The translations under genes were made by a program, and so were the position numbers. Below, piece after piece: positions 49,859-63,304 of a stretch of DNA of 64,000 nucleotides; the first letter of the stretch is position 1; every line of letters starts with the position of its first letter. Source of the DNA: Halorussus salinus (lineage in GTDB: Archaea > Halobacteriota > Halobacteria > Halobacteriales > Haladaptataceae); the NCBI RefSeq assembly GCF_004765815.2, contig NZ_ML974127.1:381310-445309 (forward strand). Direction: 5' to 3'. The notes under the pieces are model-generated. The model did no database searches. It saw nothing but the letters and a program-made list of their open reading frames with translations, and was not told where the DNA came from.

Positions 49859-50905
49859 TCAGTCCCCGACCGACGCGGTGGCGTTGGCCGACTCGGTGCG
49901 GAGTTCCCGGACGGAACTGACCACGACGGCCCCGCTGACCAACAGCGCCGCGCCGAGGATGATGGCGAGGCTCACGGTGTCCAGCACGGGCATCTCGACG
50001 ATGCCTCCGACCTTCCGAACCGCGACCGCGATAGCGCCCAACAACAGCATCACGCCGAAGTACACCTTGATGTCGCTCTCGTCCACGAGGCTCGTCGCCG
50101 CGGCCCCGAGACGCGCGCCGAGCGCGCTCCCGGCCAGTAGCGGCACGACGATTGCCAAATCGACCGCGCCGTCCATCGCGTAGAGGAAGCTCCCGATGCC
50201 GCCCGAGAAGACGATCTCGAACAGGTCGGTCCCGACCGCGATGGGCACGGGCACCCCGATGAGGTAGAAGAGGGCGGGCATCCGGATGAACCCACCCCCG
50301 ACGCCGAGGAACCCGGACAGCAGTCCCGTGGCGAACGCGACGACGAGTATCATCCACAGCGAGACCGTCACGCCGCCCCGGAGCGTCATCATGGGCGGGA
50401 CGCGGTAGGACTGAATCTTCTTCGCCACGTCAGGGATGTCCTCGGCGTCGATTTCGCCCGCCGCCTCCTCGTCGTGGCTGATACCGCCGCCCTCGTCGTC
50501 GCCGTCGTTCCCGACCGCTCGGTACGTGATGAACACGCCGATACCGCCGAGGAGTGCCACGTACGCGACGCTGACCACGGTGTCGGCCAGTCCGATGTCC
50601 TGCAACCTGTGGAGGCCGAACTTTCCGACCTCGATACCAGCGGTCGTTCCGGCTATCATCAGGCCGCCGAGTTTGTAGTCTACTTGCCCGAGGTCGCGGT
50701 GCTTGAGCGTGGCGATGACCGAGGTCCCGAACACGAAGGCGAGTCCTGACGCGACCGCCACGTCGGGTTCGTACCCCATCACCAACAGCGCGGGCGTGAC
50801 GAGGAACGACCCGCCCATCCCGAAGAACCCGAACAGGAGGCCGATGAGGAGACCGAACCCGGCGAACATCCCCAGTAGCGACGCCGCGACGCCGAATAGC
50901 TCCAT
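49859..50905 (-). CDS. TauE/SafE (TSUP) family sulfite/sulfoacetate-type exporter
   Basis: A 348-residue membrane protein with two repeats of the TSUP fold: GLLIGLLFGFFGMGGSFLVTPALLVMGY in the first and ATGLLSGFLGVGGGFIRMPALFYLIGVP in the second. Between them is a hydrophilic loop rich in Asp, Glu and Gly (about 130-165), longer than in bacterial TauE. Family members export sulfite or other organosulfonates. It is followed by the HTH regulator and preceded by a tiny DUF7512-like gene on the same strand. Confidence 0.9.
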   Translation of the reverse strand: MELFGVAASLLGMFAGFGLLIGLLFGFFGMGGSFLVTPALLVMGYEPDVAVASGLAFVFGTSVIATLKHRDLGQVDYKLGGLMIAGTTAGIEVGKFGLHRLQDIGLADTVVSVAYVALLGGIGVFITYRAVGNDGDDEGGGISHDEEAAGEIDAEDIPDVAKKIQSYRVPPMMTLRGGVTVSLWMILVVAFATGLLSGFLGVGGGFIRMPALFYLIGVPVPIAVGTDLFEIVFSGGIGSFLYAMDGAVDLAIVVPLLAGSALGARLGAAATSLVDESDIKVYFGVMLLLGAIAVAVRKVGGIVEMPVLDTVSLAIILGAALLVSGAVVVSSVRELRTESANATASVGD

Positions 50906-50907
50906 CG

Positions 50908-51057
50908 TCAGTCACCTCGGATGGCGTCGGTGATAGCTGGCCCGAACACCCGTTCGAGGGCACCGTAACCGACGTACAGTACGACGGCCTCGACCAGTAC
51001 GACGCCGATGAGTAGCGCGGCCCCCGTCGGACCGCTCGCGGTTTCAATTCCGAACAC
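50908..51057 (-). CDS. DUF7512-like one-helix small membrane protein
   Basis: A 49-residue protein starting at GTG 51057: MFGIETASGPTGAALL, then IGVVLVEAVVLYVGYGALERVFG and PAITDAIRGD. It has one TM helix followed by a short amphipathic segment. Its stop is 3 nt from the TauE/SafE start, so it belongs to that operon. I associate this pattern with haloarchaeal DUF7512, often next to TSUP genes. It may be an accessory subunit of the exporter. It is below common ORF-length cut-offs. Confidence 0.75.
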   Translation of the reverse strand: MFGIETASGPTGAALLIGVVLVEAVVLYVGYGALERVFGPAITDAIRGD

Positions 51058-51475
51058 GATTCGTCACCCGGTACAGTCTTGTGTGGTTCATAGGTTTCTG
51101 TACAGTAGACCGTAACCGGCAATCCCACTTAACGGTTTTGAACAACTCGCACAATACTATATCTCGATATCCCACACATGGTGAGACGTAACTTATGGGT
51201 GGCTACGGCGGTCGCGGAACGCGACGACTCGACGCGTGTGACGAGGCGGACCGGGCGTGCGCGTCGTTCGGTTTACTTTCGCTCACTCGACCAGCGATTA
51301 TTGTGGAGTATGCGGATTCCTACTCGTCGGCCCGTGTAGCCCGAGCGAAAACAGTACGCCAGACCGAGGCCGAGCGACGACACTTCGAGCAAGCTACTGA
51401 TGCGACGAGAACGAGTCGAGAGGAAACGAGTCCACGGAGAACGAGTCGGAGAGGGTCGGAGTTCGATGCAGTCGG
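51058..51475. other. 418-nt intergenic region with sulfur-cluster promoter motif
   Basis: It contains CGCACAATACTATATC (51148-51163), whose CAATACTAT word recurs inverted upstream of the rhodanese-MBL gene. On the minus strand the same segment reads ATAGTATTGTGCGAG, about 90 nt before the small DUF7512-like gene. The right half (51190-51475) includes AACGAGTC repeated near 51410-51450. I see no gene in it. Confidence 0.5.
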
Positions 51476-51985
51476 TCAGTCGCTGGCGGTCGGCGCGCTG
51501 GCGTCGTCGCCCGTCCGTGAACGCCAGAGTCCTTGGGCGTACGCGCCGAGGAACATCCCGCCGATGGCCAGTAGGATGGGGTAGTTACCGACGCCGAGGC
51601 TGGCGTAGGCCGCGCCGGGACAGATGCCCGAAATACCCCACCCGACGCCGAAGATGACGCCGCCCGTGAGGACGTTCCTGTCGAACGACTTCAGCCGTCG
51701 AGCGTAGGGTCGTCCGGTCAGGGGCGCGCGGTCGAGGAACCGAACCCCGATGGCGAACGCGGTGCCCGCGACGACCGAGCCGACGCCCAGCACGAACAGC
51801 AGGCCGAAGTCCCGAAACTGGAGGAAGTCCAGCACGACTTCGGGTCTGGCCATGTGGCTCAGTCCTAACCCGAAGCCGAACAGCAGGCCGCCGACCACGA
51901 CGAGCGGCACGAACAGGGGATGTCGGTCCCGTTCCGGGTTCGCCCCGTCGCGCTCACCCCCGGCGGTTCCGGTCGGACCGCTCAC
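51476..51985 (-). CDS. YeeE/YedE-type sulfur transporter, C-terminal-half protein (DUF6691-like)
   Basis: A 169-residue membrane protein with four helices. HMARPEVVLDFLQFRDFGLLFVLG and VGWGISGICPGAAYASLGVGNYPILLAIGGMFLGAYAQG match the second half of YeeE/YedE (TsuA-like) transporters, with the cysteine of SGICPG that handles thiosulfate in TsuA. The GTG at 51985 overlaps the preceding gene stop by 4 nt. The two halves together equal one full transporter. Confidence 0.87.
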   Translation of the reverse strand: MSGPTGTAGGERDGANPERDRHPLFVPLVVVGGLLFGFGLGLSHMARPEVVLDFLQFRDFGLLFVLGVGSVVAGTAFAIGVRFLDRAPLTGRPYARRLKSFDRNVLTGGVIFGVGWGISGICPGAAYASLGVGNYPILLAIGGMFLGAYAQGLWRSRTGDDASAPTASD

Positions 51986-52467
51986 GGCGTCACCCCCGCG
52001 GCCTGCATGAGTTGGGCGGTCAGGATGGCGACGCCGAGGAACGTGAGGACGTTGACCAGCGAGGTCGGAGCGACCGACCCGACGCCACAGATGCCGTGGC
52101 CGGAGGTACACCCCTTCCCGACGCGGGTGCCGACGCCGACGAGGAGGCCCCCGCCGAGGAGTCGCCACCACGAGACGCGGGTCGTCCACCCGAAGTCACC
52201 GAACGCCAGCGCGTAGATGGCCGCACCGGCGACGATGCTCAGCGTGAACGCGACGCGCCAGTCGCGCGAGGCGACGTACTTCGCGCGGTTGAACCGCGGA
52301 ACGGTCGAGACGTACGACAGCGTGGATTCGAGGAACGTACTCGCACCTGCGGGAATCGCGGTGCCGAGGTAGATGACGGCGGTGCCCAGTCCGATGAGCG
52401 CCCCGCCCACGGCGTACCGCCAGACCCCGTTTGGAAACAGGTCCGTGAACGTGACAAGTGGCTCCAT
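51982..52467 (-). CDS. YeeE/YedE-type sulfur transporter, N-terminal-half protein
   Basis: A 161-residue protein with about four TM helices. The key segment is GVGTRVGKGCTSGHGICGVGSVAPTSLVNVLTFLGVAIL; GCTSGHGICG carries the cysteines that relay thiosulfate in TsuA. It precedes the C-terminal half with a 4-nt overlap and follows the rhodanese-MBL gene after 24 nt, all minus strand. Import of thiosulfate or a related anion is inferred from the family. Confidence 0.9.
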   Translation of the reverse strand: MEPLVTFTDLFPNGVWRYAVGGALIGLGTAVIYLGTAIPAGASTFLESTLSYVSTVPRFNRAKYVASRDWRVAFTLSIVAGAAIYALAFGDFGWTTRVSWWRLLGGGLLVGVGTRVGKGCTSGHGICGVGSVAPTSLVNVLTFLGVAILTAQLMQAAGVTP

Positions 52468-52491
52468 GATGTGTGTTCAGTTTTCGCCGGA

Positions 52492-53682
52492 TTAGTCGCT
52501 GGTCATCGCGTCGGAACTCGCCGCGCAGTTGTTCGGGCCGAGTTCCAACTCGAAGGCCTCCTCGTCGCTCCGGTCTTCCTGCCCGAGGTTGGTCGCGATG
52601 ACCTCCTCGTAGTTGGCGGGCCGGGGTGGCATGTCCGAGAGGACCAACTCCACGAACGCGTCTTCGTCCATCGTCAGCGCGTCCATCTTCTCTTTGAGGT
52701 TGCCGATGGTCTCGGTGTAGGTGCCGTCCGCGCGGGTGTCGGCCGCGTCGCCGAAGTGCGCGCCGCCCACGACTACGTCGTCGTCCAGCGTCAGGATGCG
52801 CTCCTGTAGCGACTCGTAGAGCTGTCGGGCCGCGTCGGGCGCGCCCTCGTCGCCACCTTCCAAGTCGGGTCGAGCGACGCTCTCGGCGAACAGGCCGTCA
52901 CCGGTCAGCAGAACCGCGTCGTCCACGAGGTAGGAAGTCATGCCCGAGGTGTGGCCGGGCGTGAAGACGGTCTCTATCTCCGCGTCGCCGACCGCGAACG
53001 CGTCGCCGTCCTCGGCGTGGGTCACGGCGTCGTCGTAGGTGACTCCTCGGTCTATCGCGGCCGCCGGGAGGACGCCTTCGATGCCCTCGTCTACGAGCGC
53101 GCGAACGCCCGAGACGTGGTCGGCGTGGACGTGCGTGTCGATTGCGTATTTCAGGTCCGCACCGAGCGCGCGGGCGTCCTGTCGGTAGGTGTCGGTGAAC
53201 GCTCGCAGGGGGTCGATGACCGCGGCCTCGTCGCCGGAGACGACGAGGTAGCTCATGCAACCGCTGGACGGGCGCTGGTACTGGGCGACCGTCGCGTCCG
53301 TGTCGGCGTCGATTTCCACGTACTCGAAGATGCGCGCCCAGCCTTTCATGCCGTCAGCGAGGTTCTTGGCGTCGTAGCCCTCCTCGACGAGTTCGCCAGC
53401 GACGTACTCGCTGGAACCGCCCTTCGCACAGACGACCACGATTTCGCGGTCGTCGGGCAACTGCTCGAAGACCTCGTCGTCGGGTTCGCCCGCGAGGAAC
53501 TCGAAGTAGGGGACGTTCAGACTCTCGACGTTCTCGCCGTCGATGGACCACTCCGCCACGTCGTCGGGGACGCGGGTGTCGAGAAGAAACACCTCCTCGC
53601 CGCTCTCGATGCGGTCTTTCAGCGCTTCGGGGTCGATGCTCTCGACGTTCACGTCCGGCGTCGGGAACTCTGGTTCGCTCAT
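52492..53682 (-). CDS. Rhodanese plus metallo-beta-lactamase fusion (persulfide dioxygenase-like), copy 1
   Basis: A 396-residue fusion with the rhodanese first. Residues 15-115 form the rhodanese domain with active-site C85 in VVCAKGGSSEYVA. Residues about 130-340 are an ETHE1-like MBL domain with THVHADHVSG and FTPGHTSGM as iron ligands, and VVGGAHFGD. Such proteins oxidise glutathione- or protein-bound persulfide to sulfite, and the rhodanese moves the sulfane sulfur. The C-terminus FELELGPNNCAASS is shared with the paralog at 54903. Preceded by a TTGTGCAA motif. Confidence 0.9.
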   Translation of the reverse strand: MSEPEFPTPDVNVESIDPEALKDRIESGEEVFLLDTRVPDDVAEWSIDGENVESLNVPYFEFLAGEPDDEVFEQLPDDREIVVVCAKGGSSEYVAGELVEEGYDAKNLADGMKGWARIFEYVEIDADTDATVAQYQRPSSGCMSYLVVSGDEAAVIDPLRAFTDTYRQDARALGADLKYAIDTHVHADHVSGVRALVDEGIEGVLPAAAIDRGVTYDDAVTHAEDGDAFAVGDAEIETVFTPGHTSGMTSYLVDDAVLLTGDGLFAESVARPDLEGGDEGAPDAARQLYESLQERILTLDDDVVVGGAHFGDAADTRADGTYTETIGNLKEKMDALTMDEDAFVELVLSDMPPRPANYEEVIATNLGQEDRSDEEAFELELGPNNCAASSDAMTSD

Positions 53683-53716
53683 TACGAGTTACCCTATCGG
53701 GCGCTCACTCATAAGG

Positions 53717-53744
53717 GTTTGGATAGTATTGCACAACACAAACA
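53717..53744 (-). promoter_or_regulatory. TTGTGCAA promoter motif, copy 3 (rhodanese-MBL gene)
   Basis: The minus strand reads TTGTGCAATACTATCCAAA, 35-57 nt before the start of the rhodanese-MBL gene. It matches the motif before the HTH gene (49817-49840) over about 17 of 19 positions with one gap, and shares CAATACTAT with the site at 51148. The repetition in three promoters of one cluster suggests a common regulator. Confidence 0.55.
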
Positions 53745-53957
53745 ACATCAATTCCCGCCATATTCGACTCGACTGGTATGGGAATTGGGTTTAGAAGGTC
53801 TTTGATACGCTATTTCGGGCAATTGGACGATTCAGACGCGTAACGAAGGCACGGTGAATACGGGTTTGGACGTGTCCGTAAAACCCAAGGACCAACAAGC
53901 TTTTATCCCCGCACCCGGTATTGCTCAGTACACACAAGATAGAACACTGGTGTTACC

Positions 53958-54215
53958 ATGAGTGAAGCATACGACATTACCGAGACGCTCGACGTGAAAG
54001 GACAGTCCTGCCCGATGCCCGTCGTCAAGTCCAAGCAGGCGACAGACGGACTCTCCGAGGGCGAGGTGCTAGAAGTGATCGCGACCGACTCCGGGAGCAT
54101 GAGCGACATCGAGGGGTGGGCGAACACGACCGACGGCGTCGAACTCCTCGACCAAGACGAGACCGAGGAGGGCGGCGAGTCGGTCTTCAAGCACTACGTG
54201 CGCAAGACCCAGTAA
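53958..54215 (+). CDS. tusA: TusA/SirA-family sulfur carrier protein
   Basis: An 85-residue sulfur carrier. The active cysteine is C18 in VKGQSCPMPVVKSKQA, the classic CPxP. It accepts sulfane sulfur as persulfide and hands it on. A TTTTATCC element (53901-53908) is its likely TATA box, giving a short leader. The stop is one nucleotide before the start of the DsrE-like gene, so the two are an operon. Confidence 0.94.
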   Translation: MSEAYDITETLDVKGQSCPMPVVKSKQATDGLSEGEVLEVIATDSGSMSDIEGWANTTDGVELLDQDETEEGGESVFKHYVRKTQ

Positions 54216-54216
54216 G

Positions 54217-54801
54217 ATGAGTACGGACACTCCACAGGGTCCCGACCCCGCGGCGAACGCCGAGGAGGTCGCGGACCTGCAAGCCCGAATCGACGAGTTG
54301 GAGGACGAGCTGTCGGCGGTCAAGTCCGACGTGGGCGACGACCAGAAAAAGATGACCATCATCGCCACGAAGGGCACCTTCGACATGGCGTACCCGCCGC
54401 TCATCCTCGCCAGCACCGCGGCCGCGTTCGGCTGGGACGTGGTGGTCTTCCACACGTTCTGGGGACTGGACATCCTCCACGAGGAGAAGTCCAAGAACCT
54501 CAAGATGAGCGCGGTCGGCAACCCCAGCATGCCGATGCCCAACGCGGTCGCCTCGCTCCCGTTCATGGACTCGATGGCGACCAAGATGATGGAGAAGAAG
54601 ATAGACGAGCAGGGCACCGCGACCATCGAGGAACTCATCGAGATGTCGCTGGACACGGGCGTAGACTTGCAGGCGTGCCAGATGACGATGGAGTTGATGG
54701 AGTACGAGGAAGCCGAGATGTACGACGACGTGACCACCGGCGTCGGGGCGGCCACCGCGCTCGAACACATGGCCGACGCCGACATCCAGTTGCTCATCTG
54801 A
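54217..54801 (+). CDS. DsrE/DrsH-like protein
   Basis: A 194-residue protein. An N-terminal coiled coil (about 15-45, VADLQARIDELEDELSAVKSD) is joined to a DsrE-fold domain: MTIIATKGTFDMAYPPLILASTAAAFGWDVVVFHTFWGLDIL, and DLQACQMTMELM with the possible redox cysteine. DsrE-like proteins bind persulfide and work with TusA in sulfur oxidation. The adjacent tusA makes that role likely here. Confidence 0.88.
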   Translation: MSTDTPQGPDPAANAEEVADLQARIDELEDELSAVKSDVGDDQKKMTIIATKGTFDMAYPPLILASTAAAFGWDVVVFHTFWGLDILHEEKSKNLKMSAVGNPSMPMPNAVASLPFMDSMATKMMEKKIDEQGTATIEELIEMSLDTGVDLQACQMTMELMEYEEAEMYDDVTTGVGAATALEHMADADIQLLI

Positions 54802-54859
54802 GCTTGCGGCACGTCTTTTCTCCGGCGACGATGGCGGCGTAGTCTTGCACTGTATTTAC

Positions 54860-54878
54860 ACTGGCAACCAGTATTAAG
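54860..54878 (+). promoter_or_regulatory. Inverted repeat and TATA-like box of second rhodanese-MBL gene
   Basis: ACTGG-CAA-CCAGT (54860-54872) overlaps the TATA-like GTATTAAG (54871-54878), which lies 25-32 nt before the ATG at 54903. An operator overlapping the TATA box would permit repression. CTTGCACTG just upstream (54844-54852) partly resembles the cluster motif. Confidence 0.5.
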
Positions 54879-54902
54879 GGCGCGGCGACCCGAGTCAGAG
54901 CC

Positions 54903-56048
54903 ATGCCAGCGAACGTGACTCCGCGACGGTTGGCGGACATGCTCGATTCCCGCGAGAAATTCGTTCTCCTCGACACGCGCGGCGAGGAGAGCTACGAGTC
55001 GTGGCACGTCCGAGGAGCGAAACACTTCCCCTTCGACGCCGACGAGGAGTTGACCGACGACCGGAAGGCGGACCTCGACGCTATGCTCGACGGCCAGCGC
55101 CGGATTCTGACCATCTGCGCGAAGGGCATCACCTCCGACCACTTCGCCGACGAGTTGGCCGACGCGGGCTACGACGACGTGGCGGTCGTCACCGGCGGGA
55201 TGGAAGCGTGGAGCCAAGTCTACGACGCGGTCCCCGTACCGACCGACGGTGATGCGGAAATCGTCCAAGTCCAGCGTCGCGCGAAGGGGTGTCTGGGGTA
55301 CGTCGTCGCCGACCCCGCGACCGGGGAGGCCGCGGTCGTGGACCCGACGCGCCACACCTCGGAGTTCCGCGCGGTGGCCGACGACCACGACTGGGACATT
55401 ACCCGAGTCTTCGATACGCACGTCCACGCCGACCACGTCTCGGGCGGCCGGGACCTCGCCGACGAGGTAGACGCGCCCTACCACCTGAGCGAGGCCGCCG
55501 ACGAGCGCGACGTGGCCGACGAGTTCACGCCCTTGGCCCGGAACGAAGTAGTCGAGGTCGGCGACGTGCAACTCAAGGCGATTCGCGTGCCGGGCCACAC
55601 CACCGAGATGGTCAATATTCTGGTGAACGACGAAGCCGTGCTGACCGCCGACACCCTCCACGTCGGCTCCGTCGGTCGGACGGAACTGGAGTTCGGCGAC
55701 GACGAGGCCGGGAAGGGCGCGACGATGCAGTACGAGTCGCTCCACCGGACCTTGCTGGCGGAACCCGACGACGTGACCGTCCTGCCGGGCCACGTCGATG
55801 TCACCAGCGAGGGCGAGTTCGAGCGCGGCGACCCCGGCGAACCGATCTCCTCGACTATCGGCGAGGCGCGAACGCGCTACGAGTTGTTGCAACTGGACGA
55901 AGACGCGTTCGTGGACCGACTGACCTCCGGCGACCGCGAGAAACCGCCGAACTTCGAGGAGGTCATCGCCATCAACCGCGGCGCGGACGAGGCGTCGATG
56001 GAGGAGGCGACTCGGCTGGAGCTGGGTCCGAACAACTGCTCGGCCTGA
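54903..56048 (+). CDS. Rhodanese plus metallo-beta-lactamase fusion, copy 2
   Basis: A 381-residue paralog of the gene at 52492. The rhodanese domain (1-105) has C72 in TICAKGITSDH. The MBL domain has THVHADHVSGG, VPGHTTEMV, TADTLHVGS and LPGHVDV. The common C-terminal LELGPNNCSA is kept. Loop residues after the rhodanese cysteine differ from copy 1 (KGITSD versus KGGSSE), so substrates may differ. Same strand as tusA and the DsrE-like gene, 101 nt downstream, with its own promoter. Confidence 0.9.
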   Translation: MPANVTPRRLADMLDSREKFVLLDTRGEESYESWHVRGAKHFPFDADEELTDDRKADLDAMLDGQRRILTICAKGITSDHFADELADAGYDDVAVVTGGMEAWSQVYDAVPVPTDGDAEIVQVQRRAKGCLGYVVADPATGEAAVVDPTRHTSEFRAVADDHDWDITRVFDTHVHADHVSGGRDLADEVDAPYHLSEAADERDVADEFTPLARNEVVEVGDVQLKAIRVPGHTTEMVNILVNDEAVLTADTLHVGSVGRTELEFGDDEAGKGATMQYESLHRTLLAEPDDVTVLPGHVDVTSEGEFERGDPGEPISSTIGEARTRYELLQLDEDAFVDRLTSGDREKPPNFEEVIAINRGADEASMEEATRLELGPNNCSA

Positions 56049-56212: not shown

Positions 56213-57124
56213 CTATCGAACTAGCAAATCGAGTTGGTGGGCGCAGTAGACCAGTTCCGCGTCGGCGATCTGCTCGCGCCGTCGGTCGGCCCACGCCGCG
56301 ACGCGCTCGGCGTCGAGGTTGCCTTCTTTTCGTACTGCTCCGGCGACCATCTCCACGATGCAATCGAGGAAGTACGCCTCGTCGGCGGGGTAGGTACCGT
56401 CTTCGGGGTGGACCACCCAGTCGGACCCCGCCGCCGCGAGGAGGTCGCCGGTCGCGCTCGCTTCCGCGAGGAGGTGGCGTCCGGCGCGGCTGTCGCCCCC
56501 GTCGTCCAGATGCCGGTGGAACGAGTCGAGCAGTCGCTCCTCGAACTCGGGGTCGGGTACCGGCTCGAAGCTCGTCGCGCCGTCGAAAGTGATGGGACAG
56601 TACGCTAGTCCGTCGGGCGCGAGGGCGCGCCGGAACGCCGCGAGCGCCTCGGCGAGGTCCACGAGGTCTACGAAGGCGTGGGCGACCACGAGGTCGAACT
56701 CGCGGTCGGTCGCCGCGAGGTAGTCGAAGGCGTCGGCGGTCCGGAATCGGACCTCGGCCCGGCGTTGCCCCCGCGAGAGGACGAACCGGCCGTCCGCGTC
56801 CGCGCCACCGGCTCGACTCGCTCGTCGGCTCGCGTCCGCGCGCCGGACTGCGAACCCGCGCGGGGCGGCCCACGCGGGCAGGCGCTCGCGCGCGGCCGCG
56901 ACGTTGCTCTCCTCGATGTCGAGTGCGGTGTACTCAACTCGGTCGGGGAACCACGGCCGGTCGAGGAGCCTCGTGACCGTCGAGCCGATTCCCGCGCCGA
57001 CCTCCACGACGCGCAGGGTTCCCTCGCGGTCGCGCAACTCCTCGGCGAGTCGGGCTTCGACGCGCCGGTCGAGCGCGCGGTCGTCCACGCTTCGCTTGGC
57101 CGAGAGGTACCGCTGGAAGTTCAC
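56213..57124 (-). CDS. SAM-dependent methyltransferase of the pterin-like cluster
   Basis: A 303-residue enzyme. Motif I is LRVVEVGAGIGSTVTRLL, motif II EYTALDIEESNVAAARERL and motif IV FDLVVAHAFVDLVDLAEAL. A charged insert (about 105-120) interrupts the core. The C-terminal third, ending VYCAHQLDLLVR, is probably the substrate cap. Its ATG overlaps the stop of the glycosyltransferase by 4 nt. It is thus the last gene of the PTPS-glycosyltransferase-methyltransferase operon. Substrate unknown. Confidence 0.85.
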   Translation of the reverse strand: MNFQRYLSAKRSVDDRALDRRVEARLAEELRDREGTLRVVEVGAGIGSTVTRLLDRPWFPDRVEYTALDIEESNVAAARERLPAWAAPRGFAVRRADASRRASRAGGADADGRFVLSRGQRRAEVRFRTADAFDYLAATDREFDLVVAHAFVDLVDLAEALAAFRRALAPDGLAYCPITFDGATSFEPVPDPEFEERLLDSFHRHLDDGGDSRAGRHLLAEASATGDLLAAAGSDWVVHPEDGTYPADEAYFLDCIVEMVAGAVRKEGNLDAERVAAWADRRREQIADAELVYCAHQLDLLVR

Positions 57125-58239
57125 GGCGCGACCTCCGTCTGCGGAGCGGACTGCTCGTCGGCGACCGCTTCGAGGAAGCGCCGGGCGGTCGCCATCGACT
57201 CGTCCCAGCCGGGGTGGCGCTCGAAGCGTCGGCGGGCGGCGAGGCTCATCGCTCGCAGGGTTGCGCGGTCGTCCCGGAGCGTCCGGACCGACTCGGCCAC
57301 GGCGGCGGCGTCGCCCGGCACGACGAGGAAGCCCTCCTCGCCGTCCGTGACGAGTTCCGGCGCACCCCCCGCACTGGACGCGAGCGCGGGCAGTCCGAAG
57401 CCCATCCCCTCCAAGTAGACGATGCCGTAGCCCTCGAACTGTGAGGGGACCGCGAGGAGGTGGCTCGCCGCGAGGCGGTCGGCGAGCGCGCTATCCGAGA
57501 GGCGGCCCTCGAACCGGATTCGGTCGGCGACGCCGCGGTTTCGGGCCTGCTCGCGGACGCGCTCGGCGTAGTCCCGGTCGGTCGCGCTCCCCACGACCGA
57601 GAGTCGCCAGTCGCCCGCGACGCGGGCCAGTCCCTCGACGAGGACGTGGAGCCCCTTCCGCGGAATCAGATTCCCGACGAAGACGACCTCGAAGGGGTCG
57701 CGCTCGGCGCGCGCGGCGATGGCGTCGTCGGTGAGGTCGGGGTCGAAGCGGTCGCCCGCGGGTCTGGCGACGGTCGCGGGGCGTTCTCCGGCGAGTCGTT
57801 CGGCCGCCCGGCGGGTCGCCGCGCTTGCGTAGACGGCGGCGTCGGTCGATTCGAGATAGCGCCGTTCTATCGCGCGGTAGATTCGGTTCTGCCACGCGGG
57901 CCACTCCTCGCTCGCGCGGAGGTGGTGGACGACCGCGACTATCGGCGTCTCGACTGCGCGGTTGTGCCCGACCAGCGAGGGGTGACAGAGTTCGTCCTGC
58001 ACGAGGAGGTCGAACTCGTCGCGGTCGCCGGGGCCGCCGCGGCCACGGTCGCCCCGGAGCGTTCGCCGGACGCGCGGGTCGAGAGCGTCGGCGAGCGCGC
58101 GCGGGTAGTCGCGCCACGGCAGGGAGACGACGCTGACGCGGTGGCCCTCCTCGCGGAGCGCGCTCGCCAACTTCCGGTCGTAGAGGAACCCGCCGGTTGT
58201 AGCGTCGAGGTCGCCGTACACGACCAGTCCGACGTGCAT
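57121..58239 (-). CDS. GT4-type glycosyltransferase
   Basis: A 372-residue GT-B enzyme. The N-terminal domain starts MHVGLVVYGDLDATTGGFLYDRKLASAL with the acceptor-side glycine loop. The C-terminal domain has FVGNLIPRKGLHVLVEGLA and the E-x7-E motif in SQFEGYGIVYLEGMGFGLPALAS, which contacts the nucleotide sugar. No TM segment is seen, so it works in the cytosol. It follows the PTPS-like gene after 2 nt and overlaps the methyltransferase by 4 nt. That tight packing argues for a shared small-molecule substrate. Confidence 0.9.
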   Translation of the reverse strand: MHVGLVVYGDLDATTGGFLYDRKLASALREEGHRVSVVSLPWRDYPRALADALDPRVRRTLRGDRGRGGPGDRDEFDLLVQDELCHPSLVGHNRAVETPIVAVVHHLRASEEWPAWQNRIYRAIERRYLESTDAAVYASAATRRAAERLAGERPATVARPAGDRFDPDLTDDAIAARAERDPFEVVFVGNLIPRKGLHVLVEGLARVAGDWRLSVVGSATDRDYAERVREQARNRGVADRIRFEGRLSDSALADRLAASHLLAVPSQFEGYGIVYLEGMGFGLPALASSAGGAPELVTDGEEGFLVVPGDAAAVAESVRTLRDDRATLRAMSLAARRRFERHPGWDESMATARRFLEAVADEQSAPQTEVAP

Positions 58240-58241
58240 CG

Positions 58242-58619
58242 TCAGACCTCGCGGCGGTGAGACGCCCACGCGATGTCGTCCTCCCGTAGCTTCACCGTCA
58301 CGGCGTCGATTTTGGGCGCGTCGAGGTCCCGCCGAAACCGCTCGCCGAAGATTCGAGCGAAGTGTTCGAGGCTCGGATTCAGTCCCTCGAACGCGGGCCG
58401 GTCGTTCAGCGTGGCGTCGCGAAACCGGGCGACCGTGGCGTCGATGCGCTCGTTCAGCGCGTCGATGTCCGCGAGGTAGCCGTGTTCGTTTAGCTCCTCG
58501 CCAGCCAACTCGACTTTCGCAGTGTAGTGGTGGGAGTGCAGGTCGCCCTCGGGTCCGGGGTCGGGGACCGTCAGGAAGTGCTGTGCCACGAACTCGCGCT
58601 GGACCGTGACGGTGTACAT
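58242..58619 (-). CDS. Cysteine-free 6-pyruvoyl-tetrahydropterin synthase (PTPS/QueD) homolog
   Basis: A 125-residue T-fold enzyme. Zinc ligands are expected at H14 (FVAQHF), H28 and H30 (GDLHSHHYTAKVEL). The catalytic cysteine of the C-x3-H-x-H motif is absent. There is no cysteine in the protein, and the equivalent place, four before H28, holds E24. The C-terminal NPSLEHFARIFGERF and AVTVKL are typical. PTPS-III-type enzymes with Glu in or near this spot convert dihydroneopterin triphosphate to 6-hydroxymethyl-dihydropterin. I infer a non-queuosine pterin role. Confidence 0.85.
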   Translation of the reverse strand: MYTVTVQREFVAQHFLTVPDPGPEGDLHSHHYTAKVELAGEELNEHGYLADIDALNERIDATVARFRDATLNDRPAFEGLNPSLEHFARIFGERFRRDLDAPKIDAVTVKLREDDIAWASHRREV

Positions 58620-58773
58620 CTACGTAGCGCACGACGGCGACGAGTATGAAAGTCGGGGGCCGGACGGCGGGACGGGGACTCGCTCGAAGAATGCTCTGGG
58701 TGTGTTTACATATGATATACAATTCTGTAACGTTGGCAGGGATTTCTCGCCAGCATTGTTCGACAGACCGCGT

Positions 58774-58987
58774 GGCGCGTGCGGGCGCGGTCGTCGTGAG
58801 CGGATGCGAACGACGGCTCGTCGGACGCGGGTTGTCCGACGGTGCCGCCGGGCCGCGCCCATCCGCGCGAGGGACGAGTATCGGAGCGGAACGCAGTGGA
58901 GCGAGAAACGCAGTCGGTTGGGGAGGGTGTGGCCTGCCGTCGCGGTGCGGAGCGGTGCGGTGCGAAGCGGTGCCGTGCAGTAACTCC
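58774..58987 (-). repeat. Dispersed intergenic repeat, copy C (reverse orientation)
   Basis: Read on the minus strand it starts GGAGTTACTGCACGGCACCG near 58987, continues through CCGCACCGC and CTCCCCAACCGA, then GCGCGGATGGGCGCGG, and ends GCACGCGCC (58774-58782). The order of landmarks is the same as in copies A and B. The 15-nt TAGCTTCAGGCTTGA opening is missing. It fills the 592-nt gap (58620-59211) between the PTPS-like gene and the MDR dehydrogenase; the rest of the gap holds GGTGCTG repeats (59011-59055) but no gene. Confidence 0.65.
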
Positions 58988-59211
58988 TTTTTATCGGCGA
59001 TAGTTCGCTGTGCGGTGCTGTCCGGGGGAGTCGGTGCTGTACGGAGTAGCTGGTGCTGGACTGGACACTCCGAAAGCCGTCCGGGACGGTTCCGGTGCCG
59101 AGCAGGCCGCCCGCGGTGACTTTCCCTCCTCGTCCCGGCTGGCACACGACTCCGCGAACTCCTCGATTCCCCCCATCGAAATTCTCGATTCCCTCCACCG
59201 AACTCCTCGCT

Positions 59212-60336
59212 TCAGTACTCGAACACCACGCCGAGCGCGTCGCCCGGATTCTCGTCCAGCAGGTCGTACGACTCGCTCGCCTCACCGATTCCGAACTCGT
59301 GGGTCACGAACCGCTCGGGGTCCACCTCGCGCAACCAGTCCCACGCCACGTCCATCCGGCGGTCTTTCGACCACCGACCCCGGAGGTCCGGCGCGATGGT
59401 GCTGACCTGACTGCTCTCGACGCTGACCCGACTCCGGTGGAACCGCCCGCCGAGGTCCAACTCGGCCGGTTTCGTCCCGTACCACGACCCGACCACGACG
59501 CGGCCGTCGTAGCCCGTCGCGGCGATGGCCGAGTCGAGCGCGTCGGGACAGCCCGAGAGTTCGTAGGTCAGGTCCGCGCCCGCGATGTCGTCGTACGGGT
59601 CGCTGTCGGTGGTCTCGTCGTTGTCGGTGGTCTCGTCGCTGGCGGCTTCCGTGGCTTCGCTATCGGCGTCCGTGACCTCGCTGTCGGCGTTCGCCCCTCC
59701 ACCCGCCAACTCGTCGCGGACGCGCTCGCCAGCGTCGCCCTCGGGGTCGAGGGCGGCGTCGGCTCCGAGTTCCCGCGACCGCTCGCGCCGGTCGGGGTAG
59801 TAGTCCAGCGTCACCAACTCCGCGAGCGGGAACCGCCCGAGGAGTGCCGTCGTCAGCAACCCGACCACGCCCTGTCCGAAGACGACCGCGCGCTCCCCGA
59901 GGCGGGGCGCGCCGTCCTGCACGAGGTTGACCGCCGTCTCGACGTTCGGCAGGAAGGTGGCCTCGGTGGCCGAGCAGTCGTCGGGCACGGCCAGTAGCTC
60001 CGCGACGGGCGCGCAGAAGTGGCTCTCGTGGGGGTTGAACCCGAACACGCGCCGGTCGAGCCACGCCGACTCGACGCCCGGCCCGACCGCCTCCACCCGG
60101 CCGACCGCGGCGTAGCCGTACTGGAGCGGGAACTCGAAGGTGCCAGCGAGCGCGTCGATGGTCGCGTCGGCGGCCATCCCGGTCGGGACCTCGCCCCGGT
60201 AGACCAGTAGCTCCGTGCCGGGGCTGACCGCCGACCGCTCGACCCGGACGCGGACCTCGCCCTCGTCGGGGTCGCGTCGCTCGCGCTCGCGCACCTCCAC
60301 CGCTCGCGGCTCCGTGAAGTAGAGTGACCGTGGCAT
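59212..60336 (-). CDS. Zinc-less medium-chain dehydrogenase/reductase (MDR) with acidic insert
   Basis: A 374-residue alcohol-dehydrogenase-like enzyme. The N-terminal SAVSPGTELLVYRGEVPTG stands where zinc MDRs have a Cys ligand, so the catalytic zinc is probably missing. This segment resembles BchC-type dehydrogenases. The Rossmann motif is AVVFGQGVVGLLTTALL (150-166). Residues about 212-248 are an Asp/Glu/Thr/Ser-rich insert, encoded partly by an 18-bp tandem repeat (59604-59639), in the nucleotide-binding domain. It lies upstream of the PTPS operon on the same strand. Confidence 0.82.
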   Translation of the reverse strand: MPRSLYFTEPRAVEVRERERRDPDEGEVRVRVERSAVSPGTELLVYRGEVPTGMAADATIDALAGTFEFPLQYGYAAVGRVEAVGPGVESAWLDRRVFGFNPHESHFCAPVAELLAVPDDCSATEATFLPNVETAVNLVQDGAPRLGERAVVFGQGVVGLLTTALLGRFPLAELVTLDYYPDRRERSRELGADAALDPEGDAGERVRDELAGGGANADSEVTDADSEATEAASDETTDNDETTDSDPYDDIAGADLTYELSGCPDALDSAIAATGYDGRVVVGSWYGTKPAELDLGGRFHRSRVSVESSQVSTIAPDLRGRWSKDRRMDVAWDWLREVDPERFVTHEFGIGEASESYDLLDENPGDALGVVFEY

Positions 60337-60489: not shown

Positions 60490-61086
60490 TTACCACTTTA
60501 AGTACTCGTCGCGGAGCCGCCGAAGCTCCCCGCAGAGTCGTTCAAGCAGTGGTTTCGCCACCGGATTCGCGCCGACGCCGAGGTACGCCCGCTGTGGCGA
60601 AAACGCCCCCGAGCGCATCCGGAGCGCCAGCGCCACCGCGCGGTGGTTCCCGTCGGCGACGTAGCGCGGGACACACCCCTCCCGCGTCGAGACGACCAGC
60701 GGTCCGGCTGGCATCTCATCTACGAAGTCGAGTACCTGTTGTACGTCCACGCCCGTCTCTGCGGCCAGTTCCTCGGGCTTCTCGTTGGCGATGCGGTCGG
60801 CCGCGCCGTGGACCGTGCCGTCGGGCGAGAGGTCGCGCCAGCGGAGGTTCGGTGGCCCCTCGACCAGTCTGAGGTCCGCGAACTCCGCCCGGTCGAGGGT
60901 CGTCTCGTACCACGTCACCGGCGCGTCGCGCCAGACGAACGCGGCCGCACCGGGTTTCCGGTCCAAGAGTTCGTCCAGCGCCGCCCGCTCGGACAGCGAG
61001 TCGATGGGGAACCACTCGACCTCGGGGTGGGTGCGCTCGACTCTGAGCCACTCCCGGAGGACTTCGACCTGCGAGACGCGATGCAC
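60490..61086 (-). CDS. ParB/sulfiredoxin-like domain protein
   Basis: A 198-residue protein. VSTREGCVPRYVADGNHRAVALALRM has the DGNHR signature of the ParB/sulfiredoxin nucleotide-binding fold. The N-terminal half, VEVLREWLRVERTHPEVEWFPIDSLSERAALDELL, is helical. The start is uncertain. The GTG at 61086 gives a sensible length, and upstream starts extend into the bop promoter region. Divergent from bop. Function unknown. A role in DNA segregation is not implied. Confidence 0.65.
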   Translation of the reverse strand: MHRVSQVEVLREWLRVERTHPEVEWFPIDSLSERAALDELLDRKPGAAAFVWRDAPVTWYETTLDRAEFADLRLVEGPPNLRWRDLSPDGTVHGAADRIANEKPEELAAETGVDVQQVLDFVDEMPAGPLVVSTREGCVPRYVADGNHRAVALALRMRSGAFSPQRAYLGVGANPVAKPLLERLCGELRRLRDEYLKW

Positions 61087-61295
61087 CGACGGAGCTACGT
61101 GCCGAACACACTCAGTTGTTCTCCTCGTTCGACCGGCGGTCGCGGGTAAGCCCCGATTGTCATCGCGGCAGACGCCGAGACGCACGTTCTCGCGTCACCG
61201 GTCGAATCCGATTCTCGACAGCTGGAATTAATAGCGAATTGACGAGAGGGCGCGACGCTCTGCCAACAGACTTTTAGGTCGTTTCGAGCCATGTA

Positions 61296-61334
61296 ACCCA
61301 CTCGACGGGTGTTAGACGGTCTCTGGGTATTAAG
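61296..61334 (+). promoter_or_regulatory. Candidate bop promoter with upstream inverted repeat
   Basis: ACCC (61296-61299) and GGGT (61307-61310) form an inverted repeat around ACTCGAC, upstream of TATTAAGT (61328-61335). This TATA-like box precedes the bop ATG by about 28-35 nt. The placement recalls the upstream activating site bound by Bat in Halobacterium, which has ACC/GG ends. No bat gene is in the window. Regulator identity is inferred. Confidence 0.4.
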
Positions 61335-61362
61335 TCGGGAAAATCCTAAGCCTCGCTCCGGT

Positions 61363-62115
61363 ATGGTTTCACCCGACCAATTCGACGCGCTGACGTACTG
61401 GACGCTCTGGATAACCGCCGCCGCGATGGCCGTCGGCACCATCATCCTCTACATCAAAGGCCGCGGGATGGACTCCGAGGAGGGCCGCGAACACGCGGTC
61501 GTCTCCATCTTCATCCCCGCGATAGCGGCCACGATGTACCTCGCGATGGCGCTGGGCTTCGGCGTCTCCCGAATCACGCTCGTGGACGGTGCGGACCAAC
61601 TCGTGTTCTGGGGCCGGTACGCCGACTGGATGATAACGACACCGTTGTTGTTGCTCGACCTCGCGCTGTTCGCGGGCGCGGACCGCGAGACAATCGGGAC
61701 CCTGTTGGGACTCGACGTGTTCATGATAGCGACCGGCTTCTTCGCCGCGAGTTCGGCCCAACCCGTCAACCGCTACGTCTGGTGGGCCGTGAGTTCGGGC
61801 GCGTTCGTCGTCATCCTGTACGTCATTTTCGCCAAACTCCCGTCGTTCGCCAACAGCTACGGCACCGACCGCGCGAGCAGTTTCGGCAACCTCCGGAACC
61901 TGCTGGCGGTGCTGTGGTTCGTCTACCCTCTGCTGTGGCTGGTCGGCACCGAGGGCGCGAGCGTCGTCCCGCTGGGGGTCGAGACCGTCGGCTACGCCGT
62001 CCTCGACATCACCGCGAAGGTCGTGTTCGGCTACGCCTTGCTGAGTAGCGTCGCCAGCCTCGCTCCTCGCCGAACCGAGGCCGAGGCGGGCGCTGGCGTC
62101 ACGGCGGACGACTGA
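61363..62115 (+). CDS. bop: Bacteriorhodopsin (light-driven proton pump)
   Basis: A 250-residue seven-helix retinal protein. Helix C carries the proton-pump set R85, D88 (counter-ion), T92 and D99 (cytoplasmic proton donor) in RYADWMITTPLLLLDLAL. These correspond to R82, D85, T89 and D96 of the Halobacterium protein. Helix G has D215 and the retinal Schiff-base lysine K219 in VLDITAKVVFGYALL. Release-group glutamates are E197 and E207. The D/T/D set separates it from halorhodopsin and sensory rhodopsins. The ATG at 61363 is preferred over one at 61309, which would precede the TATA box. Confidence 0.96.
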   Translation: MVSPDQFDALTYWTLWITAAAMAVGTIILYIKGRGMDSEEGREHAVVSIFIPAIAATMYLAMALGFGVSRITLVDGADQLVFWGRYADWMITTPLLLLDLALFAGADRETIGTLLGLDVFMIATGFFAASSAQPVNRYVWWAVSSGAFVVILYVIFAKLPSFANSYGTDRASSFGNLRNLLAVLWFVYPLLWLVGTEGASVVPLGVETVGYAVLDITAKVVFGYALLSSVASLAPRRTEAEAGAGVTADD

Positions 62116-62156
62116 ACTCACCGCGGACGACTGAACTCACCGCGGACGACCGAACT
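62104..62156 (+). repeat. 19-bp tandem repeat at the end of bop
   Basis: A 19-bp unit GCGGACGACTGAACTCACC occurs at 62104-62122 and again at 62123-62141, and a partial third copy with one change runs 62142-62156. The first copy contains the bop stop codon (62113-62115). It looks like recent slippage. The remaining intergenic DNA up to 62356 shows no gene. Confidence 0.8.
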
Positions 62157-62356
62157 GGGTGGTCACCCGACGAGTCGCGTCTCGCCGCCCGAGTCGTCTT
62201 CTGTCGAGCGAGTCGCCGATGGCCCGCCGCCCGTCGGTCGTCGGACCGCCGACCGATAGCTCGCCGCGACCGAACGGCCTTTGAACACCTATTACCAACT
62301 CCCGGAAACGAACACGGAACGGACAAGTCGAACTCCGGACCACCCCACCGACATCT

Positions 62357-63304
62357 ATGCCCGATTCGCTCACGTACGTCGAGTTCCTGTCGGTCTTCCT
62401 CGCGGTGCCAGTCGCGGCGTTGGCGGTCGCGGTAGCCCGGAAAACCGACGACCCCCGGCGCGTCCTCGCGGGTCTCGCCGCGCTGGTCTGTATCGCGGTC
62501 GGCTACACCGCGCCGTGGGACAGTTACCTCGTCGGCCGAGGAGTCTGGACGTACGGCGAGGGCGTCGTCGCGGTCCGGTTCGCCCGCGTCCCCCTCGGCG
62601 AGTGGCTCTTCTTCGTCCTCCAGACGACCGCGACCGGCCTGTGGTATCACTTACTCTCGTCGGGCATCGACCCCGCGCTCCCCGGTCGGGACGCGCTCGG
62701 CGACTCCGACGGGCAACCCGTGCGAGTGAACGCGACGGAAGTGAACGCGACGGGAGCGACCACCGCGGCGACGCGAACTGCGAGTGCGCGGACCGCGGGT
62801 GCGACCGCGTGGCTCGCGCTCGCCGCAGTCGGCGCGCTCCTCGTCGTCGGCCCGCCCCGGACCTACTACCTCGGGATGATTCTGGCGTGGGCCGCGCCGG
62901 TCCTCGCCTTTCTCTGGGCGGTCGGCGGGCCGGTCCTCTGGCGGGAGCGCCGCCTCGTCGCCGCCGCGGTCGCGGCCCCCTCGCTGTACCTCTGGGTCGC
63001 CGACTGGTACGCCATCCGGACCGGCCTGTGGGCCATCGCGCCGGAGTACAGCACGGGACTGCTCGCGTTCGGGTTGCCGATAGAGGAGGCCGCCTTCTTC
63101 CTGCTGACGAACCTCCTCGTCGTGCAGGGACTCGTCCTGTTCGACTGGGTGGTCGCCCGCGCGACAGAGCGCGACCCCCGCTACGCCGTCGCGGGACTCG
63201 TGCCGGGCGGCGTCTCCCGGCGCGTGCCCGATTCGGTCGTGCGAGTCGCGGGGTCGCTCGCGGGCAGACTGCCCGGTGTCGCGGAGGTACGCCGCCGATG
63301 GTAG
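62357..63304 (+). CDS. crtY: Lycopene beta-cyclase (CrtYcd-fusion type)
   Basis: A 315-residue membrane protein with two homologous halves. The first has GYTAPWDSYLVGRGVWTYGEG and the second GLWAIAPEYSTGLLAFGLPIEEAAFFLLTNLLVVQGLVLFDW. The PWDxxxxxxGxW and PxEE motifs are the catalytic hallmarks of the CrtYc/CrtYd-type cyclases. It converts lycopene to beta-carotene, the precursor of retinal. An Ala/Thr-rich, poorly conserved stretch (about 122-150) links the halves. Lies between bop and brp. Confidence 0.94.
   Translation: MPDSLTYVEFLSVFLAVPVAALAVAVARKTDDPRRVLAGLAALVCIAVGYTAPWDSYLVGRGVWTYGEGVVAVRFARVPLGEWLFFVLQTTATGLWYHLLSSGIDPALPGRDALGDSDGQPVRVNATEVNATGATTAATRTASARTAGATAWLALAAVGALLVVGPPRTYYLGMILAWAAPVLAFLWAVGGPVLWRERRLVAAAVAAPSLYLWVADWYAIRTGLWAIAPEYSTGLLAFGLPIEEAAFFLLTNLLVVQGLVLFDWVVARATERDPRYAVAGLVPGGVSRRVPDSVVRVAGSLAGRLPGVAEVRRRW

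Follow-up and report, generated by a model that had tools for sequence, protein, structure and literature searches.

The window analysed here is a stretch of 64,000 nucleotides from the haloarchaeon Halorussus salinus (contig NZ_ML974127.1). It contains four minus-strand genes encoding a medium-chain dehydrogenase/reductase (MDR), a protein resembling 6-pyruvoyltetrahydropterin synthase (PTPS), a family 4 glycosyltransferase (GT4) and an S-adenosylmethionine (SAM)-dependent methyltransferase (Table 1). A preliminary description, made from the sequence alone, had interpreted them as a pathway for a modified pterin, a reading that we consider plausible. Its gene layout is exact: the stop codon of the PTPS-like gene ends at 58242 and the GT4 ATG occupies 58239-58237 (a gap of 2 nt), nucleotides 57121-57124 are common to the GT4 stop and the methyltransferase start (an overlap of 4 nt), and the MDR gene lies 592 nt upstream of the PTPS-like gene on the same strand. 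A promoter-like match at 58739-58712, between the MDR and PTPS-like genes, is suggestive at most, given that the host is an archaeon. Our best reading is that this cluster is the haloarchaeal form of an archaeal-bacterial cluster typified by SCO6650-SCO6655 of Streptomyces coelicolor, whose gene order (MDR-PTPS-GT4-methyltransferase, co-linear on one strand) is found in the window.

Table 1. Features of the four-gene cluster and its upstream neighbour, in window positions
Feature	Position	Strand	Match or remark
MDR dehydrogenase without catalytic zinc ligands; Rossmann domain of NAD type; first gene of the core	59212-60336	-	Pfam ADH_zinc_N, 1.8e-9
Intergenic stretch from MDR to PTPS, 592 nt	58620-59211	-	Candidate promoter site for the PTPS-GT4-methyltransferase operon
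PTPS-like tunnelling-fold protein	58242-58619	-	Pfam PTPS, 1.3e-24
GT4 family glycosyltransferase	57121-58239	-	Pfam Glycos_transf_1, 1.1e-32
Class I SAM-dependent methyltransferase, GTG start	56213-57124	-	Pfam Methyltransf_12, 4.5e-13; also Methyltransf_25
DGNHRA-motif protein, uncharacterised, occasional neighbour; true start uncertain	60490-61185	-	

The PTPS-like protein belongs to the PTPS superfamily by its predicted tunnelling fold and its pterin-anchor glutamate. Its AlphaFold2 model (predicted local distance difference test score of 97) was matched to PTPS structures by Foldseek. The best PDB fold match is 3D7J, the structure of SCO6650 (template modelling (TM) score 0.92, root-mean-square deviation 1.6 A), QueD scoring a TM of about 0.81, and SCO6650/3D7J is also the best sequence match (1.4e-8). 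As stated in the preliminary description, the catalytic cysteine is missing: the protein contains zero cysteines, and the cysteine position is taken by Glu24 in the motif EGDLHSH, i.e. ExxxHSH with the glutamate at H-4. This glutamate is present in 59 of 60 aligned haloarchaeal rows, the remaining row being a broken gene. The catalytic Asp-His dyad is also lost. Glu113, the pterin anchor, and Glu85 are invariant in 59 haloarchaeal and 86 bacterial orthologues. The three histidines of a zinc site predicted from the sequence (H14, H28 and H30) are kept in haloarchaea (57-59 of 59), whereas the bacterial orthologues have lost the third (Ala in 86/86) and carry Ala at the cysteine position. In a phylogenetic tree, the haloarchaeal and bacterial cluster proteins are grouped against QueD with a support of 95/77, on long branches. 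The paper on 3D7J reportedly describes a protein of unknown function that lacks zinc, a catalytic triad and PTPS activity but has residues suited to a pterin-like ligand, and these features fit the conservation seen in the orthologues.

The PTPS-like gene is found in 66 of the 117 genomes of the order (57/97 among the good genomes). Every one of the 64 genomes with the MDR gene also encodes the PTPS-like protein (64/64), and 51 genomes have neither gene. In most haloarchaeal relatives, MDR lies directly upstream of PTPS; in several genomes it lies tens of kb away or on another contig, and since both genes are kept where they are unlinked, linkage alone does not account for their co-retention. 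The four families, whose joint recurrence in haloarchaea had been raised beforehand, both co-occur and co-locate. Among 58 independent haloarchaeal loci sampled beyond the window locus (neighbour families were counted over 60-61 loci), 32 contain the full set, and in most others PTPS is accompanied by one or two of the remaining families. GT4 and the methyltransferase are each undetected in 12/58 loci and so resemble optional additions to a core of MDR and PTPS. Recurrent neighbours are the GTP cyclohydrolase (GCH) ArfA (23/60 loci), a DUF7475 membrane protein (25/60) and the DGNHRA protein (14/60), along with a Gfo/Idh/MocA-like oxidoreductase (11/60) and an alkaline-phosphatase-superfamily-like protein (8/60), the last two named by eye.

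Some haloarchaeal loci deviate from this pattern. At L046 and L077-L083, the DUF7475 membrane protein, the Gfo/Idh/MocA-like oxidoreductase and the alkaline-phosphatase-superfamily-like protein are possible extra tail enzymes. In one genus (L040, L041, L048, L050, L053 and L054), ArfA, PTPS and GT4 stand together beside QueE; here the methyltransferase is undetected nearby, and MDR is tens of kb off or on another contig. On plasmid pNG700 of Haloarcula marismortui (L099:9001-9374), the cluster PTPS aligns in two pieces with no annotated coding sequence, which suggests a frameshift in that strain. A Natrarchaeobaculum sulfurireducens plasmid (L100:7096-8870), on which ArfA adjoins MDR and no PTPS, GT4 or methyltransferase is annotated, possibly carries a decayed or reduced cluster.

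The cluster is not specific to haloarchaea: the order MDR-PTPS-GT4-methyltransferase also occurs in five bacterial phyla. Protein searches of plasmids identified the order MDR-PTPS-GT4 on replicons of Streptomyces, Microbacterium, Arthrobacter, Methylosinus, Rhizobium and Thiodictyon; a methyltransferase follows GT4 in all except Arthrobacter, the Methylosinus version being a related protein annotated as hypothetical. A scan of species genomes with a bacterial PTPS alignment yielded at least 587 confirmed relatives. The best 80 of these belong to Gamma-, Beta- and Alphaproteobacteria, Actinomycetota, Acidobacteriota, Gemmatimonadota and Myxococcota, an uneven taxonomic sample since the loci were ranked by similarity to a single query. 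Across 86 bacterial loci, with minimum values wherever a contig ends close by, MDR was detected in 86, GT4 in 83, the methyltransferase in 79, a CDP-alcohol phosphatidyltransferase in 72, RibD_C in 61, LPG_synthase_TM in 50, GCH II in 40, creatininase in 37, an FkbM methyltransferase in 23 and a sulfatase-like protein in 21. The recurrence of the four-gene set in haloarchaeal loci and in most of the bacterial loci is more than chance; this conservation, together with the co-occurrence of MDR and PTPS, rules out chance neighbours. Streptomyces relatives of SCO6650 show the same gene order, and on a Streptomyces fungicidicus plasmid GCH II lies five locus tags past PTPS, matching the spacing from SCO6650 to SCO6655. 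The latter is listed as GTP cyclohydrolase II (PMC2853524).

A linked GTP cyclohydrolase, which the preliminary description had considered, is indeed found, but it is not the dihydroneopterin-forming GCH I: it is ArfA (GCH III) in the 23 haloarchaeal loci and GCH II in the 40 bacterial loci. These enzymes are unrelated in sequence and open the same GTP ring; that functional equivalents occur in one and the same genomic setting points to the product they share. The substrate delivered by this head would therefore be a (formyl)diaminopyrimidine nucleotide, from which a pterin would need a further ring closure. ArfA is present in 96/97 good haloarchaeal genomes because of its role in riboflavin synthesis. 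In genomes with two ArfA copies, however, 11/11 have one within about 5 kb of the cluster PTPS (Fisher p = 0.002), which makes a mere riboflavin neighbour unlikely. Likewise, the bacteria with a cluster GCH II that were examined carry at least one further GCH II elsewhere (8/8).

In 15 clusters of the Streptomyces type and of related actinobacteria, the equivalent of Tyr105 of E. coli RibA is Met or His, and creatininase is present in 15/15, while the GCH II clusters without creatininase keep Tyr (7/7). This replacement is a general rule only in part, as Tyr and creatininase occur together in 18 clusters; the association of Met/His with creatininase has a p value of 0.03, shared ancestry not corrected for. 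SCO6655, with Met at this position, reportedly releases the formamido intermediate FAPy and not the deformylated product, a finding attributed to Spoonamore and Bandarian in 2006. An enzyme of the creatininase family is a proven formamidase for the FAPy intermediate (PMC9478397). Of E. coli RibD, only the reductase part is matched by the RibD relatives of the clusters; lacking the deaminase part, these would leave the 2-amino group in place, which a ring of pterin type needs and one of flavin type does not. The first enzymes are thus those of the archaeal riboflavin/F420 head (ArfA, ArfB, ArfC) and of bacterial GCH II with BrbF, but the cluster differs in this deaminase-free RibD_C and in continuing with MDR, the PTPS-like protein, GT4, methyltransferase and CDP-alcohol phosphatidyltransferase. 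In Haloferax volcanii, HVO_1282, which we take to be a PTPS gene, presumably neighbours HVO_1284. HVO_1284 is arfA, and its deletion results in riboflavin auxotrophy (PMC8305020). A drought-stress paper on Arthrobacter, pursued as a lead to the cluster, concerns the ordinary riboflavin operon.

The MDR protein lacks the usual catalytic zinc ligands, as had been noted beforehand. In 48 relatives, the Cys/His/Glu positions are occupied by Pro/Arg/Ala, Tyr75 and mostly Ala76, while G40-T41-E42, G74-Y75, P102-H103 and E133 are invariant. The fold is nearest to RspB and to butanediol and sorbitol/idonate-type dehydrogenases. The second Rossmann strand ends in Asp178 in 43/48 relatives and in Glu in the rest, and such an acidic residue is the usual sign of NAD as cofactor, which we predict for this enzyme. 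GT4 has an intact EX7E motif and a GT-B C-terminal domain (motif search and Pfam). Its PDB relatives comprise PimB-type phosphatidylinositol mannosyltransferases and a tetrahydrobiopterin glucosyltransferase (5ZE7, 4.4e-15), and neither group decides the acceptor. The likeness to the latter was set aside as evidence for a pterin acceptor, since only the common nucleotide-sugar domain is covered. Cyanobacterial pterin glycosides, with this glucosyltransferase and cyanopterin, therefore provide the concept of a glycosylated pterin and related GT4 catalytic domains, but the GT4 similarity is family-wide and no proof of a pterin acceptor. Their pathways start from GCH I and a true PTPS. The methyltransferase, the fourth gene, is kept in haloarchaea and bacteria; a PDB search with it retrieved no relative.

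The accessory genes suggest that the product of the cluster may be membrane-linked. The CDP-alcohol phosphatidyltransferase, found in the 72 bacterial loci mentioned above and in 31/60 to 34/61 haloarchaeal loci, has an intact motif in 71/72 bacterial and 34/34 haloarchaeal members (105/106 overall). Together with the flippase-like LPG_synthase_TM protein, this enzyme suggests a product that is lipid-linked and crosses the membrane.

Combining these elements, we propose that a GTP-derived core of pterin or pyrimidine type receives a sugar and a methyl group and is probably attached to a lipid or phospho-polyol; we hold this proposal to be about as likely as not. ArfA in haloarchaea, or GTP cyclohydrolase II in bacteria, would open GTP to a formamidopyrimidine nucleotide, and a formamidase (of the creatininase family in bacteria) would convert this to a 2,5-diaminopyrimidine nucleotide; known enzymology of relatives supports these two steps by analogy. 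Where present, the deaminase-free RibD_C reductase may then turn the ribosyl into a ribityl chain with the 2-amino group kept. The NAD-type, zinc-less MDR could oxidise a side-chain hydroxyl; if this is C2', the 5-amino group would close the ring to a 7,8-dihydroneopterin-type pterin. The anchor glutamate of the PTPS-like protein would bind the 2-amino-4-oxo face while the side chain is remodelled, after which GT4 and methyltransferase may decorate the molecule. Finally, attachment to a lipid or phospho-polyol and transport across the membrane would probably fall to the CDP-alcohol phosphatidyltransferase and the LPG_synthase_TM protein. The complete version of this route, in which archaea and bacteria would make, without GCH I, a pterin cofactor or pigment that is glycosylated, methylated and anchored in the membrane (FAPy-type cyclohydrolase, formamidase, RibD_C, MDR oxidation at C2' to dihydroneopterin phosphate, re-purposed PTPS and lipid transfer), is put forward tentatively and is in our view rather doubtful. 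The glycosylated, methylated pterin of the preliminary description therefore stands as plausible and partly supported, with a cyclohydrolase of the formamidopyrimidine type and a product that may be tied to the membrane as the departures from it. Modified pterins are not unheard of in archaea, as Lin and White reportedly described charged pterins of Halobacterium marismortui and the glycosylated solfapterin of Sulfolobus in 1988.

Several observations weigh against the proposed route. The window genome has no cluster-linked FAPy-type cyclohydrolase, a linkage that is frequent elsewhere, not universal: its single ArfA lies on another contig (G000:C2:603403), and both its CDP-alcohol phosphatidyltransferases are unlinked to the cluster too. 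The usual haloarchaeal neighbourhood is devoid of RibD (0/61 loci) and nearly so of creatininase (3/61 loci), haloarchaeal ArfA also serves riboflavin, and GT4 or the methyltransferase is undetected beside PTPS in 22/58 haloarchaeal loci. The bacterial orthologues have lost a zinc ligand in addition to the catalytic residues; the PTPS-like protein may therefore use unrelated chemistry or be non-catalytic in bacteria. The closure to a pterin ring is chemically reasonable, but it is our own chemical inference. No assay was found for the middle or tail enzymes.

The PTPS-like gene could instead encode a regular PTPS-III or QueD, serving folate or archaeosine synthesis, that stands beside unrelated genes by coincidence, which its Pfam family would allow. 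With QueD/PTPS-I it shares the fold, zinc histidines and anchor glutamate, but neither the catalytic cysteine of CxxxHGH nor the Asp-His dyad. No queuosine or archaeosine genes occur near the four-gene cluster, in agreement with the preliminary description, and there is no linkage to queC/queE. The 4.75 Mb window genome encodes its second PTPS, a normal CxxxHGH QueD, in a separate QueD-QueE-QueC operon, which makes the gene of the cluster a paralogue rather than the enzyme for archaeosine; MptA/FolE2 is also present, on another contig. PTPS-III likewise has Glu in place of the catalytic cysteine, and Plasmodium E37 PDB entries are titled catalytic-residue mutants. However, its motif is ExxHGH (PMC5041015), whereas the window glutamate is one residue earlier, in an HSH context and outside any folate context. 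Given also its absence from 51/117 haloarchaea and SCO6650, not QueD, as nearest relative, we consider an ordinary enzyme very improbable. A contribution to riboflavin or F420 synthesis itself is just as hard to credit. ArfA adjoins the cluster in 23 loci, and a review that names PTPS subfamilies IV-VI places IV in F420 synthesis, citing unpublished work, and VI in folate, with V unclear (PMC5041015). Yet ArfA is present in 96/97 good genomes versus 57/97 for PTPS, a second ArfA often belongs to the cluster itself, and neither pathway calls for GT4, methyltransferase or CDP-alcohol phosphatidyltransferase.

The two remaining explanations change the core or its role. A monocyclic core is a realistic though doubtful option: the product would be a ribityl- or ribosyl-diaminopyrimidine (or a lumazine/flavin-like compound) carrying sugar, methyl and lipid groups, and the PTPS-like protein would act on the pyrimidine. 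The linked enzymes are exactly the early riboflavin/F420 set (ArfA or GCH II, formamidase, RibD_C), the conserved set lacks GCH I, with FolE located elsewhere in 11/12 examined bacteria, and the anchor glutamate would fit a 2-amino-4-oxo-pyrimidine as well as a pterin. On the other hand, the tunnelling-fold PTPS family is otherwise pterin-specific, and no lumazine synthase or deaminase is seen in the cluster. We regard as unlikely that the genes form a membrane or envelope pathway, making a polar lipid or envelope glycan in which the GTP-derived part is a minor headgroup. Such a pathway would account for the CDP-alcohol phosphatidyltransferase genes of bacterial and haloarchaeal loci, for the LPG_synthase_TM, FkbM and sulfatase-like genes of the bacterial loci and for the good scores of GT4 against phosphatidylinositol mannosyltransferases. 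However, neither member of the most constant pair, MDR and PTPS-like protein, is an enzyme of lipid synthesis, and the duplication of the cyclohydrolase follows the presence of the cluster.

The cluster, found in over half of the sampled haloarchaea and in many bacteria, exposes a widespread pathway without an assigned product; in the open-access literature, no description of the combined gene set was found. Because the genes are kept together in five bacterial phyla and many haloarchaea, with one step carried out by non-homologous enzymes in the two domains, the set must make something useful. Two orphans would find an explanation in the SCO6650-type cluster: SCO6650, a structure of a PTPS homologue, and SCO6655, the GTP cyclohydrolase reported to form FAPy. 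Should the product turn out to be a pterin, pterins would have a source that bypasses GTP cyclohydrolase I; should it be lipid-linked, it would establish a new class of cofactors or pigments of the membrane. The pathway is directly testable, as Haloferax and Streptomyces are genetically tractable.

The DGNHRA protein upstream of MDR gave no Pfam or PHROG match and was assigned to no family; by eye, it carries a ParB/sulfiredoxin-like signature, and it adjoins the cluster in the 14 haloarchaeal loci counted above. On the opposite strand (+), positions 61309-63304 adjoin the cluster with a microbial-rhodopsin-like gene followed by a gene for a carotenoid-cyclase-like membrane protein (by eye). 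On its other side, positions 49859-56048 hold a sulfur-metabolism group of a DsrE2-like protein, two rhodanese and metallo-beta-lactamase proteins, and YeeE/TauE-like membrane proteins, the last named by eye.

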